Positions 7,971 to 53,143 of a stretch of 61,040 bases of DNA are shown here, piece after piece. Source of the DNA: Phycisphaerales bacterium (GTDB lineage: Bacteria > Planctomycetota > Phycisphaerae > Phycisphaerales > UBA1924). Where the stretch lies: positions 1 to 61,040 of the forward strand of contig JAJDDE010000194.1 of assembly GCA_029260475.1 (NCBI GenBank), read 5' to 3'. Both the position numbers and the translations under genes were made by a program. The notes under the pieces were generated by a model. The model was not told where the DNA came from. It made no database searches and saw only the letters and a list, made by a program, of their open reading frames with translations. The first letter of the stretch is position 1. Each line of letters begins with the position of its first letter.

Positions 7971-8966
7971 TTAGACCTTGTGCGGAGCGTTCCGGCGCCG
8001 GCGCCTCATCGGTGCCGTTCCTGCGAGCATAAAGATCGCCAGGCCGCTGGGCGCGGGGACGAAGACGCCGCCGAAGGACTCGATCTCGGCTCGGAAATCC
8101 GAAATGCCGGTCCACCACGAGACGTCGCCGTAGACGCTGTTGAATGTGGTGCCGCCGGAGAGCACGCCGGCGATCACCCACTCGTTGCCGGCCCGTACGA
8201 GAAGCGGACCGCCGCTGTCGCCGGGTGCGGTTGTCGCCTCGAAGGCCAGCGGGCTGGGGTCGCTGCCCGCGATGGTGTTGGCGGCGGCCGTCCCGTTGTC
8301 GAAGTCGGTCGAGAAGATGTTCGCCCCGCTCGCGTTTGCGGGCACCCCGTAGCGATCGATGATGTTGGAGCCGCCCCAGCGGAGGTCATCGGAGGTGAAG
8401 CCGTGCCCCACGCTGCCGAGGCCGTTGAAGCCGTAGCCCATCATGAGTGCTTCTGAACCGACGAGGCTGAGCGTGTCGGGCGTCAGGCTCATCGGTGCCG
8501 CGACGTTCAGGGGCACGTCCTGTGTGAGCGTGAGGATCGTGAGGTCGTTCCCGCTCAGCAGGCCCCCGACGTTCCCACCGGGGTTGACTCTCGAGGCAAC
8601 GGTCGCGGTGAACTCCGGGTTGCTGCGATCGTCGCCGAACCAGATGCTGGAGCCGACGCCGGCACCGCAATGTCGCGCGGTGAGCACGACGTTCGGCGCG
8701 ATCAACGTCCCGGTGCATCCGCCGGACAACGCGACGACCGCGTCGAAGGACGAGGCGAACATCTGGGCACCGAGCGCACCGACGTCATCGTTGGTCACGA
8801 TCGCGTTGGCCGGAGTGCCCACGAGCAGCACCACCGCGGCGCACGATGCGGTGGACACACCGCGCGAGTGCGTGCGCATCCACGGCTCAACGGTGCTCCG
8901 AAGGCCGACGCTACGACGACAATTTGTACGCTTCAACGCGACACTCCTGTGACCAAAGCCCTGCAT
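7971..8966 (-). CDS. Secreted trypsin-like serine protease with PEP-CTERM-like tail
   Basis: A chymotrypsin-fold (S1) protease. The triad is visible: His in VVLTARHC, Asp in SGNDLTIL, Ser in APGDSGGPLL. A signal peptide (STASCAAVVLLVGTPANA) precedes IVTND. The C-terminus FVPAPSGLAIFMLAG plus an Arg cluster is a PEP-CTERM-type sorting tail, which would route the enzyme to the envelope through an exosortase-like system. ATG 8966 has AGGG seven bases upstream and a TAGACT box further up; an internal ATG at 8879 would give a more compact signal peptide, so the exact start is uncertain. Confidence 0.83.
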   Translation of the reverse strand: MQGFGHRSVALKRTNCRRSVGLRSTVEPWMRTHSRGVSTASCAAVVLLVGTPANAIVTNDDVGALGAQMFASSFDAVVALSGGCTGTLIAPNVVLTARHCGAGVGSSIWFGDDRSNPEFTATVASRVNPGGNVGGLLSGNDLTILTLTQDVPLNVAAPMSLTPDTLSLVGSEALMMGYGFNGLGSVGHGFTSDDLRWGGSNIIDRYGVPANASGANIFSTDFDNGTAAANTIAGSDPSPLAFEATTAPGDSGGPLLVRAGNEWVIAGVLSGGTTFNSVYGDVSWWTGISDFRAEIESFGGVFVPAPSGLAIFMLAGTAPMRRRRRNAPHKV

Positions 8967-9307
8967 GTCCAAACCCTGTTGCTCGTGTCAGTCTACACCG
9001 ATTCGGAGCAGATTCGGAGTGCGATTCGCGAGTTCAAACGCTGCACATCGGGATTCCTGGGGCCTTCGCGTCTCGATAACGCGTGCCAAGCACGATTCGC
9101 ACCCGTAGACACTGGTGCATGGGGCGAAGTCCCAACCGAGGGTTCGGGCTCCCAAACTCGTCACTCTGAACGAAGAACACTCGGCACGGTTGCCGACGGC
9201 CCACGCTCTCAACCCCGTGTGAAGCCGGGGGGGCAGGACTCTGATCGAATTCGATGCCTCTCAGATCGGTCTCTGGGAGTTGGAAATGCGATGAGTGCCA
9301 GCTCGTC
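8967..9307. other. Intergenic region
   Basis: About 340 bases without a credible gene. The right-hand end of the protease promoter (TAGACT on the minus strand near 8992) falls here. A short imperfect C/G hairpin (CCCCG then CGGGG near 9220) is the only other structure I see; it has no T-run, so I do not call it a terminator. Confidence 0.4.
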
Positions 9308-9850
9308 TCACTGCTCGGGGGTTCTCTCGCTGTCAGGGGTAGACGTACGGCGTTCATACTCGATGAGGAACTCGACCGTCTTTGACGCGGCGTCGCCACC
9401 GGACCGGGCGTGGGCAATTAGCGGGATTCCGTGCGGGCCGGCGACGTTCAGGAGCGAGGGCCGAGCTTCCAGCGCCGCACGCACGACGTCGAGAAAGCCG
9501 AGTGTGGCCGCCGCACAGAGTTCCAATGGTGCTCCCTGATCCAGCAGGAACTTGGCGATGTCGGTGCGCCCTGAGTGTCCAGCAGCCCCGAGGCCGCTTT
9601 TGAAGTCGCCGCCGCCCCAGTCCCACGAGGCCCTGATGAGCCTCGGCTCACGGTCAACAAGCGCTTTTGTCTTCTCGAGATCGAAGTGCGCGATATCGAC
9701 ATACTCGTTGATGAGATCGCGGTCGAGAGGACCGGGCTCCTCCCGCGGAGCCTGCTCGGTTTGCGCCAAGGCCATGGGGTTCATAGCCAGAACCCCACAC
9801 GCTCCAGCGATGGTGTAGAGCATGGAACGGCGGTCGAGTCTTGGGTGCAT
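9308..9850 (-). CDS. Exported ankyrin-repeat protein
   Basis: A 180-residue protein with an N-terminal export signal that includes an Arg pair (LDRRSMLYTIAGACG), which could be a Tat signal, ending near ALAQ. The mature part holds ankyrin-like helix pairs, seen in GLGAAGHSGRTDIAKFLLD, ELCAAATLGFLDVVRAAL and GIPLIAHARSGG. Ankyrin repeats bind other proteins; no catalytic domain is present. ATG 9850 is chosen because AGGAG is six bases upstream; another ATG at 9856 is too close to that site. It is divergent from the winged-helix regulator and may be under its control. Confidence 0.75.
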   Translation of the reverse strand: MHPRLDRRSMLYTIAGACGVLAMNPMALAQTEQAPREEPGPLDRDLINEYVDIAHFDLEKTKALVDREPRLIRASWDWGGGDFKSGLGAAGHSGRTDIAKFLLDQGAPLELCAAATLGFLDVVRAALEARPSLLNVAGPHGIPLIAHARSGGDAASKTVEFLIEYERRTSTPDSERTPEQ

Positions 9851-9926
9851 GGTCATCTCCTACGATCGGTTGCTTGAATGAGAACCAACTCAAGCCAGAA
9901 GGTATGAGGAGACGGTGTCTACGCCG

Positions 9927-9970
9927 CTGATGAACCTCTGAGCGAACCCTGAGTAAACCCTGAGAGTCCC
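9927..9970 (+). promoter_or_regulatory. Four 11-bp direct repeats (OmpR/PhoB-type operator)
   Basis: CTGAT/CTGAG begins at 9927, 9938, 9949 and 9960, a period of exactly 11 bp. The first three units also share an AAC at the same offset. Regulators with OmpR/PhoB winged-helix domains bind head-to-tail along 11-bp direct repeats, and the adjacent gene at 10038 encodes such a domain. The repeats lie about 45-90 bp upstream of a TATAGT box (10012-10017), a usual activator position. Confidence 0.55.
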
Positions 9971-10037
9971 GGTTCCCCACAGAATGACGCGGCAATGGAG
10001 CGCATCGTCAGTATAGTTGCTCCTCAATGGAGGTCCT

Positions 10038-10925
10038 GTGACCGAGCGTCATCTTCAATTTGGTGAGTTCCGGTTCGATACTCATAGCGGCGAGTTGCGC
10101 GGGATTGAGGGCGGGTCAGAAGCAACGACCACCCGGCTCCCGCCGCAACCCGCGGCGTTGCTCACGCTGCTCGCGGCGCAACGGGGCGGGCTGGTCACCC
10201 ATGAGGAGATTCGCGAGGCGTTGTGGCCTGCCACGAAGGTTGATTTCGAGGCGGGGCTGCACTTCTGTATCCGCCAGATTCGCACCGCACTGGGTGATTC
10301 GGCAGCTGAAGCCCGGTACATCGAGACTCTTCCCAGGCGTGGATACCGCCTCGTCCCCGAGGTGACCCCCCTCGTTCCCTCGGTGCCCCCAGCAGAACCC
10401 ATCGAGCACACAAAGGCCGCAACCTGGCGTCTTCGGACCGCACTCGTGCTGGGTGCGGTGGCGGCGGTCTCTGCCATCATCCTGACGGTGTCCGCCGATG
10501 GATCAGCCATTCGCATCGGGATTATGCCGTTCCAACCCCCCAGCGACACCCAGTGGCTTGGTGATGTGAGCCCGATGGCGGAGTGGATTCTGGACGACCT
10601 GACGTCGCGCGCGGTACCCGGTGTGGGCATCGTCGGACCGACGACAACAGCCTCGTTCCCGGTTTCGGACGCGACCATGATCCAGACGGCCAGCGAGTAC
10701 GAGTTGGATTACATCGTGAACGGGCGGTTCATTGTTGACGAGAACGGTGCCACGATGTTCGCCGAATTGATCTGCGTGTCTAACGGCGCACATGTATGGG
10801 TCAAGCCCTTTGACGACCTGAACCAGGGACGCCACGTCGGGTTAGCGATCAGCGACGGTGTTGCCCATAAACTTCAGCGGTCATTTAGCAAACGGTCGAC
10901 TCTTCAAGTACCAGACTCGAACTGA
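10038..10925 (+). CDS. Membrane-anchored winged-helix transcriptional regulator (CadC/ToxR-like)
   Basis: A 295-residue one-component regulator. Residues ~5-105 are an OmpR/PhoB-type winged helix (FGEFRFD near the start, then VTHEEIREALWP and the recognition region IRQIRTALGD...YIETLPRRGYRL). One transmembrane helix follows at about 130-152 (LVLGAVAAVSAIILTV). The outer domain (IGIMPFQPP...LDYIVNGRFIVDENG) resembles the TolB-like/adenylate-cyclase-associated sensor domain of this class. GTG 10038 has GGAGG four bases upstream and a TATAGT box at 10012. It is divergent from the ankyrin gene and has four 11-bp repeats in its upstream region. Confidence 0.82.
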   Translation: MTERHLQFGEFRFDTHSGELRGIEGGSEATTTRLPPQPAALLTLLAAQRGGLVTHEEIREALWPATKVDFEAGLHFCIRQIRTALGDSAAEARYIETLPRRGYRLVPEVTPLVPSVPPAEPIEHTKAATWRLRTALVLGAVAAVSAIILTVSADGSAIRIGIMPFQPPSDTQWLGDVSPMAEWILDDLTSRAVPGVGIVGPTTTASFPVSDATMIQTASEYELDYIVNGRFIVDENGATMFAELICVSNGAHVWVKPFDDLNQGRHVGLAISDGVAHKLQRSFSKRSTLQVPDSN

Positions 10926-52216: not shown

Positions 52217-53143
52217 ATGCCGACGGCCCACGAGCTCGCCACCGCGCGGGACGCCTTCGAGAACGCGTTCGGGCTGTTGCGTGTGGGCGTGTCCAAGTGG
52301 GATGGTTCGGTGTGCACGCTCAAACGGGGCGCCGACCGGTTCAGCCTGGACACCGTCCTGTTCGCCCAGGAACTGGACAAGCGCCCGTCCGCTTACACAC
52401 CCGAGGGCCTCGCGCTGCGGCTGGCGGACACGCTGGGCCTGCCCGCGGATGAATCGTTGGTGATCGACGACGTCGTGAAGGCGCTCCCGGTGCTCCGCCC
52501 ACGCTTCCTCCACGCGAGCGTGATGGACGGTCCCGGGCGCGATCTGGTGCGGCGCGAGCTGGCACCCGGGCTGCTCCTGGGCGTGTCGCTGGGCCGTCAG
52601 ACGGTGCGCAACTTCGTGACCACCCGCCTTCTCGACGCCTGGAAAATGACCTTCGACGAGGTGATCGATGTGGCGATCGAAGAGCTCATGCGCCGGTTCA
52701 CGATCGAGGACATCCACTCGCTGGCCTCGGACCCGCGCGTCCTGACGATCACGCACGATCGCGAGCCGGCGGCGTCGGTCGCCCTCGGGCTCGACCGGAT
52801 GGTCGTGGGCATCGACGCGTGGCCCGGCTCCCTGATCGGCAAGCCCAGCGAAGACCAGCTCCTCCTGGTGCCGCTGGACGAGCAGAGCGATATCAAGGAC
52901 CTGGGCGCGATCATCGAGTCCACCTACCGCATCGCCAACGAGCACGCCCGAGCGCTCTCGGCCCATCCGTGCTGGCTGTACAACGGCGTGCTCCACACCA
53001 TCGGGCTCCGGATGAGCGACGAGCAGGCGTCGGGCGGGCGACGGGCGACCGTCGAGACGAACCACCCGGACGTCGCGCACCTCCTCAGATTCCTCTCGGG
53101 AGAGTCGAACGAGGCCCCACCCTCGGACGAGATGTTGGGGTAA
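52217..53143 (+). CDS. Hypothetical protein between uppS and cdsA
   Basis: A 308-residue soluble protein with mixed alpha/beta composition; distinctive segments are RFSLDTVLFAQEL, LLGVSLGRQTVRNFVTTRLL and DQLLLVPLDEQSDIKDL. I do not recognise its family; a vague resemblance to DUF1444-type proteins is not enough to name it. TAGAAT (52205-52210) is six bases before the ATG, with TTGCCC 15 bases further up, so it is likely leaderless even though it starts nine bases after uppS stops. Confidence 0.6.
   Translation: MPTAHELATARDAFENAFGLLRVGVSKWDGSVCTLKRGADRFSLDTVLFAQELDKRPSAYTPEGLALRLADTLGLPADESLVIDDVVKALPVLRPRFLHASVMDGPGRDLVRRELAPGLLLGVSLGRQTVRNFVTTRLLDAWKMTFDEVIDVAIEELMRRFTIEDIHSLASDPRVLTITHDREPAASVALGLDRMVVGIDAWPGSLIGKPSEDQLLLVPLDEQSDIKDLGAIIESTYRIANEHARALSAHPCWLYNGVLHTIGLRMSDEQASGGRRATVETNHPDVAHLLRFLSGESNEAPPSDEMLG

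Follow-up and report, generated by a model that had tools for sequence, protein, structure and literature searches.

Between two divergent genes of a Phycisphaerales bacterium, in the 61,040-nucleotide stretch of DNA analysed here (the window), lies a short array of four direct repeats, and the question that this locus raises is which protein would read the repeats and which of the two genes would respond. One of the genes encodes a membrane-anchored winged-helix regulator and the other a small exported ankyrin-like protein. From sequence comparison, we consider it quite likely that the array is a PhoB-box-like activator site of the neighbouring regulator and that it mainly drives the divergent ankyrin gene.

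The Repeat Array

The array occupies positions 9927–9970, with units that start at 9927 (CTGATGAACCT), 9938 (CTGAGCGAACC), 9949 (CTGAGTAAACC) and 9960 (CTGAGAGTCCC), exactly 11 bp apart. The units are CTGAG-type on the forward strand and CTCAG-type on the reverse strand, and when read in the latter direction, toward the ankyrin gene, they stand 108 to 65 bp before the ankyrin start. All four contain an exact CTGA core, followed at the fifth base by G in three of them and by T in the first, and AACC-like tails are common to the units; five columns are identical across all four units and seven across the best three. The initial annotation had pointed out these four CTGAG-type units and their spacing, and both are confirmed by reading the sequence and by a comparison with Markov shuffles of the 181-bp intergenic region, none of which (0/2000) matched the three-unit or the four-unit score of the array. 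It had also proposed a genome search for triple units: in the 3.43-Mb genome as a whole, pattern searches returned this array as the single place with three exact CTGA cores at 11-bp spacing, and a two-unit pattern with up to two mismatches likewise occurred nowhere else.

The only other such 11-bp array in the window, at 53013–53060, is a GC-rich period-11 repeat with similar column scores, which is probably due to chance in GC-rich sequence. Loose period-11 similarity of this kind could suggest that the array at 9927–9970 is itself a chance or non-regulatory tandem repeat, an explanation that is refuted at the level of sequence conservation by the shuffles and by arrays conserved independently at ten loci of two phyla (described below), and to which we attach almost no probability.

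The Two Flanking Genes

The regulator gene extends from 10038 to 10925 on the forward strand and encodes 295 amino acids; its start is most likely the GTG at 10038, which lies behind a Shine-Dalgarno-like GGAGG (10029–10033, forward strand) that can be read directly from the sequence. Domain matches and a predicted model describe a ToxR/CadC-type protein with a winged helix at residues ~7–108, a transmembrane helix at ~133–151 and a TolB-N/CadC-like periplasmic domain at ~157–283. The N-terminus matches the OmpR-type winged helix Trans_reg_C (PF00486, E 2e-12), and the sequence matches in the PDB are to the DNA-binding domains of ToxR (E 1.4e-6, the best) and CadC (E 0.002). Fold searches returned ToxR, CadC and PhoB bound to the pho box for the N-terminus, and the TolB N-terminal domain and the CadC periplasmic domain for the C-terminus; since the quality of the structure model is moderate (mean pLDDT 59.7), these matches serve as support only. 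A single hydrophobic segment is evident in the sequence at ~133–151, where the model has a helix at 134–145, so that sequence reading, Pfam and a fold match of moderate confidence together indicate one transmembrane segment, a periplasmic C-terminus and no receiver domain.

Two better-known families were considered and rejected. The winged helix begins at residue 7 and Pfam detects no receiver domain with a phospho-acceptor Asp, which removes the protein from the OmpR/PhoB response regulators; nor does Pfam, in which PF00486 is the sole match, detect a BTAD domain after the winged helix, which removes it from the SARPs. By its domain make-up the regulator is thus ToxR/CadC-type, with a pho-box-like operator, and the original description of the neighbouring gene product as an OmpR/PhoB domain attached to a membrane sensor has held up.

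On the reverse strand, the gene at 9308–9856 encodes, from an ATG at 9856, a short exported ankyrin-like protein of 182 amino acids with a Tat-type RRS signal; an alternative ATG at 9850 has a better-spaced AGGAG (9861–9857). Taken alone, the protein scores under the curated cut-off for Pfam Ank, and it shares 35–47% identity with its longer counterparts in relatives, some of which contain clear ankyrin repeats. Its homologues are 267–487 amino acids long, and it may be a shortened form. The genome also carries a longer ankyrin paralogue (L265, contig C167, 3114–4223, forward strand), upstream of which no matching repeat array is present. Just past the ankyrin gene and on the same strand lies a gene for an exported trypsin-like protease (7971–8972; PF00089, E 2.6e-16), and a trypsin-like protease is likewise the predicted divergent target of related regulators at loci L160 and L130.

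Repeats Upstream of Related Regulators

The regulator is rare among its neighbours: just two of the family's 163 genomes contain it, a search of 40 near relatives for orthologues found only distant, ordinary response regulators, and the full-length relatives come from Acidobacteria and rare Planctomycetes. Removal of redundancy left 181 of about 230 loci with the winged-helix domain, or 180 when the window is set aside, and the 200 bp upstream of each gene were examined. Repeated 4-mers upstream of these 180 genes number 440 at a spacing of 11 and 320 at the double spacing of 22, as against about 170–245 at spacings that are not multiples of 11, and three control regions, located further upstream and inside the gene, have no peak at spacing 11. 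Without the window, CTGA and TGAG are the most frequent 4-mers at this spacing. A clear array is not seen at many of the related regulators.

The core of the repeats appears to follow the regulator. CTGAG triples occur at 10 of the 22 loci whose regulator has an LNxCIRQIR-like recognition helix and at 5 of the 155 with other helices (Fisher 2e-7, a value that is optimistic, as are those for the phase rule below, because the helix class was set once the first arrays had been inspected, the phase rule was likewise seen ahead of its count, and the loci share ancestry), and the control region of this comparison contains none. The Thermoanaerobaculia orthologues (L013, L014, L058–L074), beside which there is no ankyrin neighbour, have mostly GTCA-core triples, exactly 11 bp apart and ~130–163 bp before the start.

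A Recurring Gene Pair and the Direction of Its Arrays

The regulator of the window forms one clade (support 100/99) with those of G283, which is the closest relative in the same family and belongs to another genus, and of G088, an acidobacterial genome. The gene order differs among the three: the two genes are divergent in the window, the exported ankyrin gene lies directly upstream of the regulator on the same strand in G283, and an ankyrin homologue (40% identity) comes after the regulator in G088. Altogether, the closest relatives of the regulator stand beside a homologous exported ankyrin gene at 15 loci, in these three orders. Among loci with both flanks available, 11 of the 36 short regulators have an ankyrin homologue next to them and none of the 61 long ones does (Fisher 6e-6). 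The 25 short regulators without such a neighbour include many closely related Thermoanaerobaculia orthologues. A pair of ToxR/CadC-type regulator and exported ankyrin protein recurs in Planctomycetes and Acidobacteria. A literature search of open-access papers found no description of the gene pair, of the CTCAG arrangement or of the operator.

In G283 the array consists of CTCAGAACGGA CTCAGACCCTT CCCAGGGCTTC, three CTCAG units at 11 bp that lie 100–68 bp before the ankyrin start, and a three-unit pattern with one mismatch allowed finds a single site in that genome and a single site in the genome of the window, in each case the array. At ten loci in two phyla, CTCAG-type units follow one another at 11 bp and all face the ankyrin gene or operon. 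When eight ankyrin/regulator loci, excluding the window, were scored for CTCAG pairs at spacings of 6–20, the summed mismatches were 9 at spacing 11 and 19–27 elsewhere, and none of 1000 shuffles fell below 19. The opposite orientation, CTGAG, scores 21 mismatches, so the direction of the array is conserved. At four loci in which the regulator precedes the ankyrin gene (L275, L286, L292 and L297, in G1308, G1114, G1190 and G1297), the 290 bp upstream of the regulator contain no CTCAG array, possibly because another gene comes first there. Absence of the repeats at orthologous sites had been set beforehand as the outcome that would count against a regulatory site; they are present in G283 and at nine loci of further genomes, and in Thermoanaerobaculia with a GTCA core.

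These distributions also bear on whether the protein that binds might be some other OmpR/PhoB-type factor, such as one of the genome's ordinary response regulators. PhoB-type response regulators do occur in the family, with similar spacing, but the array tracks the membrane-anchored regulator across genomes, it is absent before nine ankyrin homologues of the same family in relatives that lack the regulator, and its core varies with the recognition helix, all of which makes another factor very unlikely. The recurrence of arrays with the regulator supports the proposal of the initial annotation that an OmpR/PhoB-type 11-bp site is linked to the neighbouring gene, and the array is very probably the docking site of the membrane-anchored regulator encoded next door.

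The Predicted Promoter and the Probable Main Target

The position of the putative promoter provides an indication of which gene is served. On nine independent ankyrin loci, from which the phase was derived, every TANNNT located 20–55 nt past the last unit stands 27, 38, 39 or 49 nt from the unit start (7/7 loci having one), positions that lie on one face of the helix and that none of 2000 shuffles reproduced. In the window, the predicted −10 hexamer of the ankyrin promoter is TACCTT (9899–9904, reverse strand), which follows the start of the last CTCAG-type unit (ATCAG) by 27 nt. This phase rule was then applied to 18 regulator loci without ankyrin, picked only for their CTGAG arrays and outside the derivation set: in the CTCAG direction, 8/8 TANNNT hexamers fall at 26–28, 38 or 49 nt (an effective number of about six, as some of these loci are mutually homologous), and a divergent reading frame opens behind the predicted start in all eight, with several exported products such as trypsin-like proteases. 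At L121 and L134 the predicted targets look alike, each with a frame that opens 0–1 nt after the predicted start; they are possibly leaderless and perhaps AraC-type regulators. A scan of the intergenic region of the window found no full sigma-70 promoter or terminator, and TACCTT is weak as a −10. Ankyrin transcription is predicted to start near 9892, leaving a leader of ~40 nt to the AGGAG-preceded ATG at 9850.

It could be argued that the array is mainly autoregulatory, repressing or activating the regulator's own gene, and that the ankyrin gene is an incidental neighbour. CTGAG-forward arrays are indeed found ahead of many regulator genes, and in some cases they adjoin or overlap the start codon of the regulator, which suits repression. 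However, no fixed −10 distance was found in the direction of the regulator, where −10-like hexamers scatter while all eight share one phase in the CTCAG direction, and in G283 and other loci in which the ankyrin gene comes first the array stands before that gene and not before the regulator. We therefore regard a mainly autoregulatory array as unlikely, although autoregulation and control of the ankyrin gene can operate together. With its orientation conserved and the −10 locked in phase with it, the array appears to serve mainly the ankyrin gene, and autoregulation would be a possible and secondary role. Of the earlier suggestion that one regulator may control both divergent genes, the ankyrin half is thus upheld by orientation and phase, and the regulator's own gene retains only a secondary place.

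A Proposed Mechanism

Most likely, the regulator switches on the exported ankyrin gene. Several of its DNA-binding domains would bind head to tail, one per 11-bp turn, such that the unit nearest the ankyrin gene covers the −35 position of the ankyrin promoter, from about −39 to −29, and the bound regulator would recruit RNA polymerase to TACCTT. The trigger would be a signal sensed by the periplasmic TolB-N/CadC-like domain, and the output would be the exported ankyrin protein. Head-to-tail activation is suggested by the unit over the −35 position, which resembles the arrangement of PhoB- and SARP-type activators. Sequence comparison shows the array, the domain make-up, the conserved pair, its orientation and the phasing of the units with the −10 along the helix. 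From these we infer that this particular protein binds, that it activates and does not repress, where transcription starts, that a periplasmic signal is sensed, and any autoregulation.

Comparison with Known Systems

Three known systems share parts of this arrangement. ToxR, TcpP and CadC also combine a cytoplasmic OmpR-type winged helix, one transmembrane segment and a periplasmic sensor with direct-repeat sites, the motif being TGTAA-N6-TGTAA (an 11-bp repeat) for TcpP and TNAAA-N5-TNAAA for ToxR (PMC4829181). The present case differs from them in its CTCAG/CTGAG core, in having three to four units instead of two, in its partner gene for an exported ankyrin protein and in its planctomycete and acidobacterial hosts, and it differs from CadC in that the sensor is TolB-N-like and lacks the second CadC part. 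The pho box of PhoB spans 22 bp, with two 7-bp direct repeats that are each followed by 4 A/T-rich bp (PMC4971064); the 11-bp unit, the head-to-tail layout and a location near the −35 position are shared, but the regulator lacks a receiver domain, the units are more numerous and the core is CTGAG/CTCAG, or GTCA in the Thermoanaerobaculia orthologues, and not CTGTCAT. SARP activators such as AfsR recognize repeats spaced by 11 or 22 bp, with the 3′ repeat 8 bp from the −10 (PMC10936776), and they resemble the present regulator in their OmpR-type winged helix and in a fixed distance from last repeat to −10. Unlike it, they have no transmembrane segment or periplasmic domain, and it in turn has no match to their bacterial transcriptional activator domain.

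Implications

In a wider proposal, on which our own judgement is evenly balanced, Acidobacteria and Planctomycetes would contain a large and so far undescribed group of winged-helix regulators that are anchored in the membrane and follow one promoter grammar, in which at least three CTCAG-type units at 11 bp are directed toward the target and the −10 lies 27 + 11n nt after the last unit. In one branch of this group the regulator and an exported ankyrin protein would make up a mobile module of two genes, possibly a sensor–effector or surface pair, and the recognition helix would predict the operator core. If it does, the sequence could reveal which genes such regulators control, a point that matters in Acidobacteria, where there are dozens of these regulators per genome without known targets or signals. 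If the grammar is true, operators, promoters and target genes would become readable from the sequence of uncultured organisms, and the recurring pair of ToxR/CadC-type regulator and exported ankyrin protein would gain a testable function.
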